A DNA stretch of 64,000 nucleotides from assembly GCF_014931715.1 (NCBI RefSeq), contig NZ_CP063164.1, positions 186,001 to 250,000 on the forward strand, read 5' to 3'. Position numbers and translations under genes: made by a program. The DNA is from Sulfurovum indicum (GTDB taxonomy: Bacteria; Campylobacterota; Campylobacteria; Campylobacterales; Sulfurovaceae). Shown here one piece after another: positions 13,651 to 21,594 of this stretch. The notes under the pieces were generated by a model. It had not been told where the DNA came from and ran no database searches. It was given only the letters and a program-made list of their open reading frames with translations. The stretch's first letter is position 1, and each line of letters opens with the position of its first letter.

Positions 13651-14874
13651 ATGAAAAAGATAATCGTACTTTCAACATTGGCCGGCAGCCTGCTGTTAGG
13701 CGGAGCCTACAAACTACCGGAACAGTCACTGAACTCTATGGCACTTGGTGCAGCATATGTGGCACATACAACTGAGGCGGATACTGCATACTTTAACCCG
13801 GCAAATATGGCATTCATGGGAGACAAACAGTATATTGACGGAGCGGTAACCTTGATTCGTCTGCCGTCGAATGTCTATACACTGATAGACCCTTATTCCG
13901 GTGAATCGAAAACAGAAAATATAGTTGTACCTACAATACACTATGTTGCTGCACCTGCAGGTGATTTCAGGTGGGGGGTCAGTATAGCAGTTCCAGGCGG
14001 TTTGACAAAGAGGTGGGACTCTGCCTATCAAAAACTCTATGCAGAAGAGTTTACTCTGAAAAATGTGGAAGTCAACCCTGTAGTATCATATAAGATCAAT
14101 GAGAAGTTTGCAGTAGGTGGAGGGGTTCGCCTTGTTTACAGCGAAGGTGTTGTCAAAAGTGACGGTAGGGAAACTACTCCGTATCCTATTGCAAGAGAGA
14201 TGGAAGGGAATACGATTGAGTTCGGATATAATCTTGCCGTGACCTACCGCCCGACAGATGATATCTCTATGGCAGTGACCTACCGCTCCAACATTGATCT
14301 GAATGAAGAGGGTGAAGCAAATCTTTATTTTGGCGGCGTAGGAGAGCAGTATGATGCTGAGGTTTCAGTTCCTCTTCCTGCAGCACTCAATATAGCAGTA
14401 TCCAAAACATGGAATAATAGATTCACACTCGAGTTTGTTTATGAACGAACCTACTGGTCTGCCTATAAAAGCCTCGACTTTAATTACGACCAGGATATTT
14501 TGAATCCTGTGCTTGAGGAAGCATTTAATACGCCTATTCCCAAAAACTGGAAGGATACCAACACTTTCAGGGTCGGTGCGACCATAGAAATGGATAAAAT
14601 AACGATGATGATGGGATTTGCGATCGACGAAACGCCTGTGCCGGAAGAGACACTCGGGTTTGAGCTTCCTGACAGTGATGCCAAGGTCTTCTCTATGGGA
14701 TTCCGTTATCAGCAGACTGAGAGTCTCTCCTGGGGAGCTGCTTTTTTGTATGACAGCAAAGAGAGTCGATCTATAACGCCGGGGGTTAATTCCAACGAGG
14801 TTCTTGCCAATGGGGGAAGTTTCCACGAAGGAGGTGCATACTTGACAACAATAGGTGTATCATACGAGTATTAA
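13651..14874 (+). CDS. FadL-family outer membrane transporter
   Basis: Long-chain fatty acid or hydrophobic compound channel. Signal peptide to about residue 19 (LLLGGA), then the FadL/TodX start KLPEQSLNSMALGAAYVAHTTEADTAYFNPANMAF; the NPAN motif is typical. The rest shows beta-strand alternation and ends in an aromatic strand (TTIGVSYEY). Length is 407 aa. It follows the lipase by 10 bp and precedes the acyl-CoA ligase by 1 bp. Substrate is inferred from that context. Confidence 0.9.
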   Translation: MKKIIVLSTLAGSLLLGGAYKLPEQSLNSMALGAAYVAHTTEADTAYFNPANMAFMGDKQYIDGAVTLIRLPSNVYTLIDPYSGESKTENIVVPTIHYVAAPAGDFRWGVSIAVPGGLTKRWDSAYQKLYAEEFTLKNVEVNPVVSYKINEKFAVGGGVRLVYSEGVVKSDGRETTPYPIAREMEGNTIEFGYNLAVTYRPTDDISMAVTYRSNIDLNEEGEANLYFGGVGEQYDAEVSVPLPAALNIAVSKTWNNRFTLEFVYERTYWSAYKSLDFNYDQDILNPVLEEAFNTPIPKNWKDTNTFRVGATIEMDKITMMMGFAIDETPVPEETLGFELPDSDAKVFSMGFRYQQTESLSWGAAFLYDSKESRSITPGVNSNEVLANGGSFHEGGAYLTTIGVSYEY

Positions 14875-14875
14875 T

Positions 14876-16426
14876 ATGAGCTATCAGTTTAACAATTTTT
14901 ATGAACTCATTGTATACCATGCAAAAAAGCGAAAGAACAAAACAGCACTTTTTGTGGATAATGAGAAGATATCTTACGGTGAACTTCTCTCAAAGGCAGA
15001 CAGGCTTGCAGGGTTTTTGGCAGAGAAAGGGGTGAAAGAGGGTGACAGGGTCGCACTCTTCTTGCGAAATTCCCCAGAGTTTATCTATACAGTTTTTGCG
15101 GCTTCCAAACTGGGAGCTATTCTGGTTCCTGTAAATACTTTTTTAAAAGAGGAAGAGCTCAGCTATATTCTTGAAGACAGCGGCAGTTCCGTATTGGTAG
15201 CTTCTGCTATACATGACAAAGTAGTCAACTACAGCCAGGCAAGCAGGCTTTGCAGGTTCATTCTCTGGGAAGGTGATGTGCTGGTCGAAGGTGAACAGCA
15301 TCACTATTTTGAAGAAGCGTTTAGGTCGGATAAAACGACAGAACATATACAGAGAGGACTTGAAGAGACAGCAGTTATTATTTATACTTCAGGAACTACA
15401 GGTAAGCCCAAAGGGGCTATGTTAAGCAATAAAAACATACTGTCAAATGCAGACTCCGGAAGAAGAACCATTAATGTAACGGCAAAAGACAGAGGGATAG
15501 TTTTTTTACCCATGTTCCACTCCTTTACCTTCTCTATCGGTGTCATCCTGCCTTTATATGTAGGAGCAAGTATCGTGATCATCAAATCACTTCAGCCCTT
15601 CTCCAATATCTTTAAACAGACACTGCTGAAGCAGGTTACAATTTTCTTTGGTATTCCTGATGTTTACAATGCTCTGGCAAAAGCAAAGCTTCCGTGGTAC
15701 TTTATGTGGTTCAACCGGATTCGTGCATTTATTTCCGGTGCTGCAGCACTGCAGCCTAAAACACTTGAGGCCATGGCAAACAAGTTTAAGCGTGCTACGC
15801 TGCTTGAAGGATACGGTTTGAGTGAAGCGAGTCCGGCTGTCTGTATGAATACATTCAAAAAACAAAAAGCCGGCTCGGTCGGGACGGCACTCTACAGTTA
15901 TGAGATGAAGATCGTTGACGAGAATATGAAGGAACTTCTGCACGGGGAGATCGGGGATATTATCGTCAAGGGAGACAATGTGATGCAGGGGTACTGGAAA
16001 CGCCCCGAAGCGACAGCAGAAACTATCGTAAACGGATGGTTGTTGACAGGCGATATGGGCTATATGGATGAAGAGGGATTTCTTTTTATTGTGGACAGAA
16101 AAAAAGACCTTATTATCTCCAAAGGGATCAATATCTACCCGCGTGAGATAGAAGAGGTGATTGATGCGTTTGCCGGGGTAAAAGCATCGGCAGTAGTTGG
16201 TGTTTTCGATGAGAAACACGGGGAGATCCCTGTCGTTTATATTGAACTTGAAGAAGGGACTGAATCACTGGATGAAGCAGGACTGAAAAAGTATCTGCGC
16301 GAACAACTGGCCAATTATAAAGTACCGAAGCAGATTCATGTTATTGATGAACTTCCGAAGAATGCCACAGGTAAAGTACTTAAGCGTGTGCTGAAAGAGA
16401 AGCTGAAGCAATCGAAAGAAGCATAG
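14876..16426 (+). CDS. AMP-dependent fatty acyl-CoA synthetase
   Basis: Activates a carboxylic acid, probably a fatty acid, to its CoA thioester using ATP. Motifs: P-loop IIYTSGTTGKPKGAML, GYGLSEASPAVC (A5), WLLTGDMGYMDEEGFLFIVDRKKD (A7-A8 with the hinge), and the C-terminal Lys region LPKNATGKVLKR. Length is 516 aa from ATG 14876, which sits 1 bp after the fadL-like stop; the ATG-less extension to 14855 overlaps that gene and is rejected. No beta-oxidation genes are visible, so the product may feed lipid synthesis. Confidence 0.92.
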   Translation: MSYQFNNFYELIVYHAKKRKNKTALFVDNEKISYGELLSKADRLAGFLAEKGVKEGDRVALFLRNSPEFIYTVFAASKLGAILVPVNTFLKEEELSYILEDSGSSVLVASAIHDKVVNYSQASRLCRFILWEGDVLVEGEQHHYFEEAFRSDKTTEHIQRGLEETAVIIYTSGTTGKPKGAMLSNKNILSNADSGRRTINVTAKDRGIVFLPMFHSFTFSIGVILPLYVGASIVIIKSLQPFSNIFKQTLLKQVTIFFGIPDVYNALAKAKLPWYFMWFNRIRAFISGAAALQPKTLEAMANKFKRATLLEGYGLSEASPAVCMNTFKKQKAGSVGTALYSYEMKIVDENMKELLHGEIGDIIVKGDNVMQGYWKRPEATAETIVNGWLLTGDMGYMDEEGFLFIVDRKKDLIISKGINIYPREIEEVIDAFAGVKASAVVGVFDEKHGEIPVVYIELEEGTESLDEAGLKKYLREQLANYKVPKQIHVIDELPKNATGKVLKRVLKEKLKQSKEA

Positions 16427-16475: not shown

Positions 16476-17606
16476 ATCAAAGCAATAACAAATGCAAAAC
16501 TCATTATAGGGACTGAGATCATCGAAGGGTTGACACTGCTGTTGGATGAAAAGATCAGAGCTGTTGACAGGCATGTCAACATTGATGGTGCTTCTATTAT
16601 CGATGCACAAGGCTGTTTTGTAAGCCCGGGATTCATCGATCTTCATATCCACGGAAGCGGTGGTGCAGATGTGATGGATGCTACACACGAGGCACTTGAA
16701 ACCATCTCCCAGACACTTTTACAAACAGGTACAACAGCCTTTCTTGCTACAACTATGACAATGTCCCGGGAGCGGATCGATGCGGCTTTGGAGAATATCA
16801 GAGAGTACAGTGCCGGTGTGTCTGGGGCACAGATCATCGGTGTACATATGGAGGGACCGTTCATTAACCCTCTCAGGCATGGAGCACAGGATGTCAAATA
16901 TGTGGCAAAGCCGGTACTGGAAGCAGTAGAACCTCATACAGATATCGTCAAAATGATCACACTTGCACCGGAAGTGGAGGGTGGAGAGCTTTTTGTCAAG
17001 CTGTTGACAGAACATTTTCCTCATATTATTCTAAGTATTGGCCATTCCGAAGCAAACTATCATGAGACAAAAGAGAGTTTTGGGTGGGGGATCTCACATG
17101 CAACCCATCTTTTCAATGCTATGCCCCCTTATCATCACCGTGATCCCGGACTTGTCGGTGCAGTGCTTGAAAGCGATGTTACCTGTGACGTAATCGCCGA
17201 TCTGCTTCATTTGCATCCTGCCGTACTGAGACTGGTACACAGGATGAAAGAGGACAAACTCATCCTCATTACAGATGCAATGCGTGCAGGATGTATGAAG
17301 TGCGGTACCTACGAACTGGGCGGACAGGAGGTTTTGGTAAAGGATGGGAAAGCGACACTCCAAGATGGTACACTCGCAGGCAGTGTACTGAAGATGAATG
17401 AAGCACTCCGGCATATGGTAGATCATACAGCTATGTCGCTGCCACAGGCGGTATTCAGTGTAACAGAGGCACCTTCAAAGAAACTGCGACTGAACAAAGG
17501 CTGCCTGAAAGAGGGCTACGATGCCGATATTGTGATCTTTGATGAAGATTTCAGTATCATATCGACTATTGTTGCAGGTGAAGTGAAATACCAAAGGAGA
17601 ATGTAA
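16476..17606 (+). CDS. nagA: N-acetylglucosamine-6-phosphate deacetylase, apparent AUC start
   Basis: Removes acetate from GlcNAc-6-phosphate after PTS uptake. Amidohydrolase motifs: SPGFIDLHIHGSGG, HMEGPFINPLRHGAQ, SIGHSEANY, SHATHLFNAMPPYHHRDPG, LITDAMRAG. The first canonical start, TTG 16530, would remove the first beta strand. The frame is open upstream and reads (ATC)KAITNAKLIIGTEIIEG, a typical NagA N-terminus, with AAGGGAG at 16464-16470 and ATC at 16476 where ATG is expected. This gives 376 aa. Either AUC initiates, or the base is an error. crr follows after 1 bp. Confidence 0.9.
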   Translation: MKAITNAKLIIGTEIIEGLTLLLDEKIRAVDRHVNIDGASIIDAQGCFVSPGFIDLHIHGSGGADVMDATHEALETISQTLLQTGTTAFLATTMTMSRERIDAALENIREYSAGVSGAQIIGVHMEGPFINPLRHGAQDVKYVAKPVLEAVEPHTDIVKMITLAPEVEGGELFVKLLTEHFPHIILSIGHSEANYHETKESFGWGISHATHLFNAMPPYHHRDPGLVGAVLESDVTCDVIADLLHLHPAVLRLVHRMKEDKLILITDAMRAGCMKCGTYELGGQEVLVKDGKATLQDGTLAGSVLKMNEALRHMVDHTAMSLPQAVFSVTEAPSKKLRLNKGCLKEGYDADIVIFDEDFSIISTIVAGEVKYQRRM

Positions 17607-17607
17607 T

Positions 17608-18078
17608 ATGTTCGGATTTTTAAAACGCAAACAAAGAGAGATCTTCTCCCCCGCTGATGGGCAGCTTATTGATATCACAGAGGTTCCCGATACAGTCTTT
17701 TCCCAAAAAATGGTAGGTGACGGGGTTGCCCTCAAACCTGTGGGAGATACCTTCTGCGCTCCCATCGATGGAGTTATCAGTAAGATTTTTCCCACTAACC
17801 ATGCCTTTAGCATTAAAAGTGACAAGGACATGGAGGTGATGGTGCATATCGGTCTGGAGACGGTCGCATTGGAAGGGAAAGGTTTCGAACGCCTTGCCGG
17901 TGAAGGTGACAAAGTATCGGTCGGTGATCCCATCATCAAGGTCGATCTGAACTACATTGCCGAGCATGCGAAAGATACTATCACCCCCATCATCGTTTCT
18001 GAAGAGAGCGATGTCAAAAGTATTGAGAAGAAACTGCGTATTGTCAAGTGTGGTGATCTCATTATGGAGGTGAACTGA
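17608..18078 (+). CDS. crr: PTS glucose-type EIIA component
   Basis: Phosphocarrier from HPr to the EIIB domain. The family signature is clear: IFSPADGQLIDI at the start, NHAFSI (His65) and the phosphorylated His80 in VMVHIGLETVALEGKGF, followed by LAGEGDKVSVGDPII. It is a free-standing 156-aa EIIA. The nagE product (EIIC-EIIB, no EIIA) lacks exactly this domain, so the two should work together. It overlaps the next small gene by 1 bp (TGATG). Confidence 0.95.
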   Translation: MFGFLKRKQREIFSPADGQLIDITEVPDTVFSQKMVGDGVALKPVGDTFCAPIDGVISKIFPTNHAFSIKSDKDMEVMVHIGLETVALEGKGFERLAGEGDKVSVGDPIIKVDLNYIAEHAKDTITPIIVSEESDVKSIEKKLRIVKCGDLIMEVN

Positions 18079-18173
18079 TGCCTCAGCACTCAAATGATGT
18101 AGTTACCTATATCCTTTATGCAGTGATCATTGTGGTGACGATCGTTATATTGAAGATGCCAAAGAAGAAGTGA
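18078..18173 (+). CDS. 31-residue single-span membrane protein in the PTS locus
   Basis: The frame ATG 18078 to TGA 18173 encodes MPQHSNDVVTYILY followed by a hydrophobic stretch (AVIIVVTIVIL) and a basic end KMPKKK. One transmembrane helix with a positive cytoplasmic end is predicted. Its ATG overlaps the crr TGA, so it should be translated by coupling, and GGAGG lies 10 bp upstream inside crr. No known family was recognised. It may be an accessory peptide of the NagE permease. Confidence 0.6.
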   Translation: MPQHSNDVVTYILYAVIIVVTIVILKMPKKK

Positions 18174-18199
18174 TGTTATTGCGGGTTTGATCCGGGATT

Positions 18200-19594
18200 T
18201 CAAAACTTCTTTTTGCTCATTGCATTTCTAATGCTCTCCGCGACACTTTCCGCTTTTGTACCAAGTACGATCTGTATGGAGTGCCTGTCAGGTCTTATGA
18301 CACCTTTGGCACCCAGTGCTGCAAACTCTTCATCTTTCAGGGATCCGCTCTCTTTGAGAGTGATACGAAGTCTGGTAATACAGGCATCGACAGTCACGAT
18401 ATTCTCTTTCCCGCCCAGTGCTGCGATGAATGCAGTACTTTCGTTGGAGGCACAGTTATTGCGGTTATTCTCTTCAGAAAGTTCTGACTCAAAGATTGTA
18501 AGTTTGAAAAACTTGATCGTGTAGTAGCTGACTATAAAGTAGATCAGTGCGAAGAGCGCTCCAAGAGGCAGTATGCGGAGGGGATTTGTTGCCAGTTTGT
18601 AGTTGATGACATAGTCGATGAATCCTGCTGAGAACCCAAAGCCGGCATGAACGTCAAGTGCCTGTGCTGCGGCGAGAGCAAATCCTGTCAACAAGGCATG
18701 GATGACAAAGAGCAGCGGAGCGACAAAAAGAAAGAGAAACTCCAGAGGTTCAGTGATGCCCGTCAGAAAAGAGGTAAAAGCTGCTCCTGCCAGAATGGCA
18801 CCTGCTTTTTTCCGGTAAGCCTCAGGTGTGTTCAGGTAAATGGCATAGGCCATAGCCGGCAGTCCGAACATCATGACAATATAGAAACCGGACATATAGA
18901 TGCCTGCGCTTTTGTCTCCGGCAAAGAAACGGTGCAAGTCTCCGTTTGCAATAACCTCTACCCCGTCTTTGAGGTAGGTGTACTCTCCAAGCTGGAACCA
19001 GAAGAGCGAGTTGAGAATGTGGTGCAGTCCCAGAGGGATGAGCAGCCGGTTGAGTGTACCGTAGATAAAGGTACCTGTTTCACCCAGCCCGATAATGGTA
19101 TTGGAGAAGGAGTCGATACCATTTTGGGCATAGTGCCAGAAGTATCCTGCCAATACACCAACAAAGATAGCTGCAAGAGCTGTGATGATAGGTACAAAAC
19201 GTTTGCCTCCAAAAAACCCAAGGAACTCCGGGACTTTTATGGTATGGTAGCGGTTGTAGAGCGTTCCGGCGATCACACCGATAATGATTCCTACAAAGAC
19301 ACCCATGTTGACATCTTTGTCAATACTGATGTAAACAGCTTTTGCAATGAGCACACCGATGGCACCGCTCAGCGCGGCGGCTCCGTCATTATTTTTCGCC
19401 AGGCCATAGGCGATACCAATACCAAAGAGCAGGTCGAGGTTGGCGAAAACTGCTTCTCCGGCACTTTTCATAATGACAGCGATCTGGCCGTCAAAGATGT
19501 CTCCAAAACCTAAACGCAAGAGCAGTGCTGCAATAGGAAGTACCGCAATAGGGGTCATTAATGCCTTGCCGATCTTTTGTAAAAGATTAAACAT
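18200..19594 (-). CDS. nagE: PTS N-acetylglucosamine-specific EIICB permease
   Basis: Imports and phosphorylates GlcNAc. Residues 1-370 form the membrane EIIC domain, starting LLQKIGKALMTPIAVLPIAALLLRLG, with GLHHILNSLFWFQLGEY and TGITEPLEFLFLF typical of the Glc/GlcNAc group. The C-terminal EIIB domain (about 385-464) has the phosphorylated Cys405 in TVDACITRLRI. The sugar choice is inferred from sequence type and from nagA nearby. It converges with the nagA-crr operon, 26 bp from the small ORF. Confidence 0.93.
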   Translation of the reverse strand: MFNLLQKIGKALMTPIAVLPIAALLLRLGFGDIFDGQIAVIMKSAGEAVFANLDLLFGIGIAYGLAKNNDGAAALSGAIGVLIAKAVYISIDKDVNMGVFVGIIIGVIAGTLYNRYHTIKVPEFLGFFGGKRFVPIITALAAIFVGVLAGYFWHYAQNGIDSFSNTIIGLGETGTFIYGTLNRLLIPLGLHHILNSLFWFQLGEYTYLKDGVEVIANGDLHRFFAGDKSAGIYMSGFYIVMMFGLPAMAYAIYLNTPEAYRKKAGAILAGAAFTSFLTGITEPLEFLFLFVAPLLFVIHALLTGFALAAAQALDVHAGFGFSAGFIDYVINYKLATNPLRILPLGALFALIYFIVSYYTIKFFKLTIFESELSEENNRNNCASNESTAFIAALGGKENIVTVDACITRLRITLKESGSLKDEEFAALGAKGVIRPDRHSIQIVLGTKAESVAESIRNAMSKKKF

Positions 19595-19680
19595 GTAACA
19601 GCCTTTTTTCTCTGGTTGTATATGGGTCTTTGTATGTATGGTTCTGAGTCTGTTCCGTCAAGTTTGGAAGGAGTACGTAT

Positions 19681-21510
19681 TCAAACATTCCGAATGGTCT
19701 CCTTGGTCTGTGCAATATTTCTGGCTGAAACACTGAGTCTTCTCACTCCGATCTCAATGAGCTTTCCGATCGCTTTGGTATCTCCGGCAAGTTCTCCGCA
19801 TATGCTGATGGGTTTCTCTGCTTCATCCACGATCTTTTTGATGGCAGCAAAGAGCGCTTCTGAACGCGGATCAAGTTTAAGTGTAGCATGGGTACGTTCA
19901 GTGGCGAAAAGATACTGGTTAAGGTCATTTGTTCCAATGGAGTAGAAGTCGACAACATCATTGAAGTGTGTGATCAAAAAGAGTACAGAAGGTACTTCGA
20001 CCATAATACCAAACTCTATATGGTCAAGGTTGAGGTGATACTTTTTTGCCACATCAAGCGCAAATGCTTTAGCCTCTTCAAACTCTTTGACTGTGCTTAT
20101 CATGGGGAACATTATTTTGACAGATTTTCCTTTAGCCGCAGTAAAAATGGCATACATCTGTTCTTCAAGGAGTTCGGGATGGGTTTTTAGGAGTCTGACC
20201 CCTCGGATACCAAGGAACGGGTTGCTTTCCGGTGGCAGGGTGATATATGGCAGTGCTTTGTCCCCTCCTATATCGAGTGTGCGTACAGTGACCTCTTCAA
20301 AGAGAGAAAAGATCGATCTATATGCTTCAACCTGTGCTTCAAAAGTTGGTTTCTCCTCCTTGAAGAGGAACTCGGTACGTAAAAGGCCGATTCCTTCGGC
20401 TCCCTCTTCCCTGGCAAGCTGTGCTGAGGTAACATCTGTGACGTTCGCCAACACTTTAATTGTATCACCGGAGGTGGTCACAGCACTTTCAAAACGTCTG
20501 CTTTGTGCAGTTTGTTCATTTTTCCTGTCGTTCTCTATGCGTATTTTTGCCTGATGTATATCTGCCGGTGTCGGATCAATGACAACGATACCTCTATGTC
20601 CGTCCAGAATGATCTCATCGGGCTCTTTACCTTTCATAGAAAAGGTATTGATGATTAATGAGGGGATACCGGAAGCTCGAAGGAGGATAGCTGTGTGGGA
20701 GGTCAGTGAAGTATTGCGCAGGATCACTCCGGCAGTGTTCTGTGGCAGTGTCTCTATCCGGGAGGGAAGAAGATCATCAGCCAGAAGGATGAAAGGTCTC
20801 TGTGGATATGCTGTAACAGTCGTATACCCCAAGTGCATTTTGACCCGCTGCAGAATATCCCTGTAGTCATCGTGCCTGGTTTCAAGTATACCTCCTTTCA
20901 GTTCCCTCCCCGCTTTCTCAACTGCTTCCTCAAGCATTTCAAGAGAGGTTACGTTTTGCTGCAGGGAGGCAAGCAGCTCTTTTTGTGCCAGGTATATTCC
21001 GCTGTCGGCATCAGTTTTATGTGCTTTATATATCTGCTCCAGTTCACTGATACTTTTTGCTACCGCTTCTGTAAAGCTGGTAGTGCTTTGGGTTCGGATG
21101 GTCTCTTCTGTGTAGTGCCAGAGGGGTGAAAGTGCCATACCGCCGGAGATGATCTCCCCTTCAATACTTTCTCCTTCATATGCTCCTGTCTCTTTATCGA
21201 TTCTTACTGCTTCATGGTCATTGGACATCAGTATATCAAATTTTCTGCTAAGCGTCTCCAGCGCTTCCCGGGAATCTTTCCCTTTACAGGTAAGTTCAAA
21301 ATGGTCTCCTTTTTCAAGATTCAAAGAGAGAAGGGCATTAAGACTTTTTGCATTGATACTCCTCCCGTGCGTTCTTGCTTCGATCACAGCAGCGAACTTT
21401 TTGGCTTCTGCTGCAAATGCAGCAGCGGGACGAAGATGAAAACCATTGCCTGAAGTAATGTGAAGCACAGTACTGAAGCTTTTGGAAAAGAGTCTGTCAA
21501 AAAAAGGCAT
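19681..21510 (-). CDS. fused HPr-enzyme I of the phosphotransferase system
   Basis: Supplies phosphate from PEP to the sugar PTS. Residues 1-95 are an HPr domain with the active His25 in SGNGFHLRPAAAFA. Residues about 115-609 are enzyme I: phosphohistidine His272 in SLTSHTAILLRASGIPSLI, then EGIGLLRTEFLF, DIGGDKALPYI, YSIGTNDLNQYLFATER and the C-terminal ICGELAGD. No separate ptsH is present, so this fusion covers both general proteins. It lies 86 bp downstream of nagE on the same strand... transcription order is ptsHI fusion then nagE. Confidence 0.93.
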   Translation of the reverse strand: MPFFDRLFSKSFSTVLHITSGNGFHLRPAAAFAAEAKKFAAVIEARTHGRSINAKSLNALLSLNLEKGDHFELTCKGKDSREALETLSRKFDILMSNDHEAVRIDKETGAYEGESIEGEIISGGMALSPLWHYTEETIRTQSTTSFTEAVAKSISELEQIYKAHKTDADSGIYLAQKELLASLQQNVTSLEMLEEAVEKAGRELKGGILETRHDDYRDILQRVKMHLGYTTVTAYPQRPFILLADDLLPSRIETLPQNTAGVILRNTSLTSHTAILLRASGIPSLIINTFSMKGKEPDEIILDGHRGIVVIDPTPADIHQAKIRIENDRKNEQTAQSRRFESAVTTSGDTIKVLANVTDVTSAQLAREEGAEGIGLLRTEFLFKEEKPTFEAQVEAYRSIFSLFEEVTVRTLDIGGDKALPYITLPPESNPFLGIRGVRLLKTHPELLEEQMYAIFTAAKGKSVKIMFPMISTVKEFEEAKAFALDVAKKYHLNLDHIEFGIMVEVPSVLFLITHFNDVVDFYSIGTNDLNQYLFATERTHATLKLDPRSEALFAAIKKIVDEAEKPISICGELAGDTKAIGKLIEIGVRRLSVSARNIAQTKETIRNV

Positions 21511-21513
21511 TGT

Positions 21514-21594
21514 TTACTTCATCTCCATGACGATGGCAGCTTCAGCAGGAAGCAGTGCAGAGGAAAGCATCAGTAACAGAGTGGTTTTAAGCAT
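21514..21594 (-). CDS. 26-codon leader-like ORF upstream of the HPr-EI gene
   Basis: ATG 21594 to TAA 21514 encodes a hydrophobic peptide, MLKTTLLLMLSSALLPAEAA plus IVMEMK. It has AAAAGGG upstream and its stop is 3 nt before the HPr-EI ATG. It looks like an isolated signal peptide; it could be a leader peptide coupled to HPr-EI translation, or a relic of a secreted-protein gene. Being so short, it may be chance. Confidence 0.35.
   Translation of the reverse strand: MLKTTLLLMLSSALLPAEAAIVMEMK

Follow-up and report, generated by a model that had tools for sequence, protein, structure and literature searches.

A GlcNAc-type phosphotransferase locus in Sulfurovum, probably kept for salvage rather than for carbon supply

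Gene content of the locus

The stretch of DNA analysed here (the window, 64,000 nucleotides; positions 186,001 to 250,000 of contig NZ_CP063164.1 of Sulfurovum indicum) carries, within 5 kb, the gene nagA and a phosphoenolpyruvate (PEP)-dependent sugar phosphotransferase system (PTS) of the N-acetylglucosamine (GlcNAc) type. Judged from sequence, this PTS is probably a core inherited system that serves salvage and not a carbon source. The host is a marine Sulfurovum-group bacterium, whose genome is a single contig of 2.21 Mb and 99.98% complete; absences from it therefore carry weight. The genes form two units that converge, the nagA side on the plus strand and the EIICB/HPr-EI side on the minus strand, and neither gene calls nor family profiles revealed a regulator gene of the GntR or NagC kind in the locus.

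The gene for GlcNAc-6-phosphate (GlcNAc-6-P) deacetylase, nagA (16476-17606, plus strand), matches TIGR00221 at 357 bits (cut-off 225.65), and the metal-site motifs HMEGPF, GHS and THLFNAMP are intact in its translation. It is followed by a stand-alone EIIA of the glucose/GlcNAc type (17608-18078, plus strand; PF00358, 160 bits; TIGR00830, 147.2 bits), in whose translation the motifs TNHAFSI and VHIGL are read. On the opposite strand lie EIICB (18200-19594, minus strand) and an HPr-EI fusion with a compact EI (19681-21510, minus strand). EIICB matches PF02378 (236.6 bits) and PF00367 (48.5 bits), and its translation contains the EIIB motif DACITRLR, with the phosphorylatable Cys, and the EIIC motif GITEPLEF; its best model is that for GlcNAc, TIGR01998, at 521.7 bits compared to 418.7 bits for the glucose model. 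The translation of the fusion contains the HPr motif GFHLRP and the EI motifs TSHTAI and SICGELAGD. The sequence-only reading had described these four genes as two convergent units that supply the full PEP-to-sugar relay for GlcNAc, and this description holds: all four were recovered at these positions with strong family scores, and the phosphotransfer residues are intact.

In the fusion (PF00381, PF00391 and PF02896), HPr His25, the catalytic His272 of EI, Cys571 of the PEP site and the PEP-site motifs are kept, and PF02896 scores 268.3 bits; the EI part falls below the curated TIGR01417 cut-off (315.2 versus 341.7 bits). Compared to the full-length EI of Haliovirga, approximately 28 residues are deleted from the HPr-docking helical subdomain and approximately 32 from the C terminus. 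In the AlphaFold2 model, a shallow one (5 sequences, mean predicted local distance difference test score 68.5, predicted template modelling score 0.47), four short helices remain in the docking subdomain (residues 146-163, 171-183, 190-203 and 210-226). A shortened EI might be expected where HPr is tethered to it. Upstream of the fusion, a signal-peptide-like open reading frame of 26 codons, MLKTTLLLMLSSALLPAEAAIVMEMK (21514-21594, minus strand), starts at 21594, where the PTS stretch of the sequence-only reading ends. Several relatives carry at the same place a gene for a secreted Lcl_C-domain protein of approximately 135 residues, ending 3 bp before HPr-EI, and the short frame is therefore read as the probable deleted remnant of such a gene.

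Distribution, inheritance and adjoining reading frames

The comparisons were made with 397 genomes of the phylum and 135 genomes of family f1, both drawn from larger groups. Family f1 is taken to be Sulfurovaceae on the ground that a scan of contigs found five relatives of HPr-EI in named genomes, all of them metagenome-assembled genomes of Sulfurovum. Many f1 genomes are drafts, in which absences are weaker, and several of the absences reported here rest on family profiles, which are able to miss divergent enzymes. PF02378 exceeds its cut-off in 36 of the 397 genomes, and the match is strong (E<1e-68) in 18, all of which belong to f1; NagA is found above its curated cut-off in exactly the same 18 genomes. 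This co-presence holds even where the two genes lie far apart or on different contigs. The view that a GlcNAc PTS is rare in this phylum is thus sustained. Among the f1 genomes, HPr-EI fusions that match well are common in g1, g4, g6 and g7, and one g70 genome has one; the only matches in g2 and g3 are proteins mostly of approximately 800 residues that resemble PEP synthase, and none of the matches listed come from g5, g8, g69 or g71.

In g1, the gene order is kept, with FadL-FadD-NagA-EIIA-microprotein facing EIICB-HPr-EI beside an AAA gene, and the two units are sometimes separated by an extra few kilobases. Core genes flank the locus: nfo, fadL and fadD are found at one end, and at the other end lie genes for an AAA ATPase and a rhodanese, with the nuo operon. 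The guanine-cytosine content of the PTS stretch is that of its surroundings. In the EIICB tree, whose outgroups were taken from plasmid records only, the f1 proteins except that of genome G283 form one clade (100/100, stem 1.07), which falls outside the PtsG clade (100/100); its grouping with NagE is weaker (88/64). By these comparisons, the locus is a syntenic core and an old inherited family trait of the Sulfurovum lineage, and it is most economical to suppose that it entered the family once, was then inherited and was lost several times. The word "island" in the sequence-only reading, with its sense of foreign or recent DNA, is not retained, and a recent horizontal island is rejected on the ground of synteny, base composition and the single EIICB clade. 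As for vertical phylogeny, which that reading had set against its proposal, it is found within one family but not throughout the phylum.

The exceptional genome G283 (g6), one of the 18 with NagA, carries at L031 7307-12951 a PtsG-type EIICB, an EIIA-HPr-EI polyprotein and an OprB-like porin (judged by eye), which looks like a separate glucose-type PTS. Simple contamination was considered for G283 and dropped, as other g6 genomes (G431, G436 and G441) carry similar separate EIIA-HPr-EI proteins of 850-866 residues, longer than the fusion described here. Outside the phylum samples, a conjugative IncF-type plasmid of a chicken Escherichia coli (L150, 3001-4368) encodes, where no gene is listed, an EIICB that is 48% identical to the Sulfurovum protein and adjoins genes for a GntR regulator and a HAD-type hydrolase.

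The plus-strand unit begins with fadL, the gene of a FadL/Toluene_X outer-membrane transporter (13651-14874, plus strand; PF03349, 182.9 bits; syntenic within the genus), and continues with a fadD-like gene for a long-chain acyl-CoA ligase (14855-16426, plus strand; PRK06187, 576.9 bits, cut-off 476). The probable start of nagA, at 16476, is ATC behind AAGGGAGAAGAG, at a conserved start position where many relatives have ATG; from the upstream stop to codon 19 there is no in-frame ATG, GTG or TTG. ATC occupies the same position in at least six other Sulfurovum genomes (L051, L055, G479, G459, G469 and G451), and ATT does so in one related genome, L168; none of these seven relatives has a canonical start upstream, and within the gene a canonical codon first appears at codon 5 (G451), 9 (L051 and L055), 11 (L168), 20 (G469), 30 (G459) or after codon 30 (G479). 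In L051 and L055, the frame of fadD extends over the start of nagA, and in G364 (L047), G446 (L192) and G481 (L193) a single open frame spans fadD and nagA and would encode a natural fusion of acyl-CoA ligase and GlcNAc-6-P deacetylase. This suggests that nagA is initiated at AUC or AUU, coupled to the termination of fadD.

The unit ends with a gene for a membrane microprotein of 31 residues, MPQHSNDVVTYILYAVIIVVTIVILKMPKKK (18078-18173, plus strand), whose ATG overlaps the TGA of EIIA; by eye, it has a single membrane span and ends in LKMPKKK. Inspection by eye, without a predictor, was the basis for all signal peptides and membrane spans given here. Neither this gene nor the ATC at the nagA start had been noted in the sequence-only reading. 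In an alignment of 16 relatives, M1, Y14, K26, P28, K29 and K30 are invariant, and pairwise nonsynonymous to synonymous ratios (pN/pS) of 0.09-0.34 indicate that the microprotein is under purifying selection. It was found by profile search (E<1e-5; hand count from the listing) in 72 of the 135 f1 genomes, and in G204 the same kind of search gave no match better than E 0.7; the family has no convincing match in Pfam or NCBIfam. In most genera the microprotein is a member of the operon, but it also occurs away from PTS genes. Its gene is preceded immediately by nfo in G315 and G499 and by fadD in G461, and in the six g7 genomes examined it lies ahead of ffh. By this distribution, the microprotein has no fixed link with the PTS, and a role as PTS regulator is rejected.

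Fate of GlcNAc-6-P and the purpose of the system

A profile search of the complete host genome found no protein of the NagB/Pgl family (PF01182; NagB or 6-phosphogluconolactonase), and the family is lacking in 17 of the 18 genomes with NagA, G283 being the sole one with it. The only host proteins with a SIS domain are GlmS, which has a glutaminase domain, and a CBS-containing protein of the KdsD type; thus, NagB-II is not evident either. The family search detected no chitinase of glycoside hydrolase family 18 (GH18) in the genome, and EIICB is its sole EIIC. On the other hand, GlmM is present (531 bits), and a GH3 protein of 361 residues has the NagZ motif KHFPGHG and an N terminus, MFKKIVVGLGVCSTVLFADV, that by eye is a signal peptide. 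The NagZ N termini inspected elsewhere in the phylum are mostly exported-looking, and one is lipoprotein-like. The statement that nagB lies outside the window is therefore correct, and extends to the whole genome; the search that the sequence-only reading had proposed for nagB, chitinase and other EII genes found no nagB, no GH18 chitinase and no second EIIC. Of the uses that it had put forward, neither chitin nor GlcNAc as a carbon source agrees with these absences, whereas cell-wall recycling is a good reading, given GlmM and an apparently exported NagZ. The absence of any downstream pathway for GlcNAc-6-P, which it had named as an objection, applies only to the catabolic branch; a route through NagA to GlmM exists.

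Since an importer is present without a recognisable enzyme to burn GlcNAc, these genes probably serve to build the sugar back into cell wall. EIICB would import GlcNAc that exported NagZ sets free in the periplasm, or that comes from outside, with phosphate passing from PEP via HPr-EI and then EIIA, to give GlcNAc-6-P. NagA would take the acetyl group off, and GlmM, then presumably GlmU, would convert the resulting glucosamine-6-phosphate (GlcN-6-P) to uridine diphosphate-GlcNAc for peptidoglycan and lipid A. The substrate, the direction of flux and the use in recycling are all deduced here from the gene set. Several observations weigh against this reading. The EIICB score is below the curated equivalog cut-off of TIGR01998 (553.2 bits); in G392 (g7, L032 3215-7922), EIICB occurs on its own, with glgA and a probable glgB adjoining, a possible hint at glucose in that genus; the arrival of GlcNAc at the transporter is assumed; and a GlcN-6-P deaminase of an undescribed family may exist. 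In addition, NagZ is present in 172 of the 397 genomes, many of which lack the PTS, and this makes it compatible with salvage but no proof of it. The nagZ gene is not linked to the locus, and NagZ was rejected as a linked partner.

Were GlcNAc from chitin or detritus burned instead, an unrecognised GlcN-6-P deaminase or a reversed GlmS would have to act on GlcN-6-P. A PTS with NagA is indeed the usual catabolic set elsewhere, with nagB adjoining in Priestia and Klebsiella, but the lack of NagB, of a NagB-II-like SIS protein and of GH18 in the host, and of NagB in nearly all NagA-bearing genomes, makes such catabolism unlikely. That EIICB carries glucose, NagA being a neighbour with a separate role, would agree with its membership in the glucose/GlcNAc superfamily at a score under the Nag cut-off and with the glycogen genes beside it in G392; the higher score with the GlcNAc model, the position outside the PtsG clade and the joint occurrence of EIICB and NagA in 18 genomes, whether linked or not, render this quite unlikely. 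A mainly regulatory PTS, in which EIIA and HPr-EI would report on PEP status, with sugar transport a secondary task, might be suspected from the stand-alone EIIA and from g4, where the EIIA operon lies apart from EIICB and HPr-EI. However, EIICB and NagA have kept their catalytic residues and are inherited together, and the microprotein, which persists without EIIA, provides no evidence for a signalling partner of EIIA; we regard a regulatory purpose as highly improbable.

Salvage of GlcNAc, the reading preferred here, can be carried further, although only tentatively and with considerable doubt. The PTS may be a dedicated, non-catabolic system with a compact HPr-EI that recaptures the cell's own periplasmic cell-wall GlcNAc; FadL, FadD, NagA and EIIA may form an envelope-salvage operon, with nagA translationally tied to fadD by its AUC start, and this operon may end in a new family of membrane microproteins of independent function.

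Sulfurovum-type lineages are known mostly for sulfur-oxidising chemolithoautotrophy, and a sugar PTS is usually taken as a sign of sugar feeding. A complete Nag PTS that is inherited without a GlcNAc-burning enzyme points to cell-wall economy instead, and PTS genes in vent metagenomes are accordingly no safe ground for inferring heterotrophy. The apparent AUC start common to several species and the conserved, unnamed microprotein are both directly testable. Nothing relevant on Sulfurovum with PTS or GlcNAc appeared in the literature, searched at the level of titles and abstracts.

Comparison with known systems

The enterobacterial NagE-NagBA system, as in Klebsiella, likewise joins a GlcNAc-type EIICB with NagA for PEP-driven import to GlcNAc-6-P. 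There, NagE is an EIICBA fusion whose gene adjoins nagB and the gene of a nagC-type repressor, whereas the Sulfurovum locus has a separate EIIA and joins HPr to EI, and neither nagB nor a regulator is present. The HPr/EI/EIIA/NagE cluster of Haliovirga groups the same four PTS functions, and its EIIA likewise stands alone and its EIICB is short; there, HPr and a full-length EI are encoded by separate genes, and the stretch examined contains no nagA. A limited literature search turned up no description of a two-part HPr-EI protein. Three-part EIIA-HPr-EI fusions of the FruB kind are known (PMC11837500), and they share with the Sulfurovum protein the union of HPr and EI in one polypeptide; the latter differs in having no EIIA domain and in that its EI is shortened both in the helical subdomain and at the C terminus. 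In Caulobacter, NagB forms the catabolic branch, which Sulfurovum is without, and uptake is TonB-dependent and the regulators are of the GntR type; the route that the two would share is import of GlcNAc by the PTS, deacetylation by NagA and passage through GlmM into peptidoglycan (PMC13046382).

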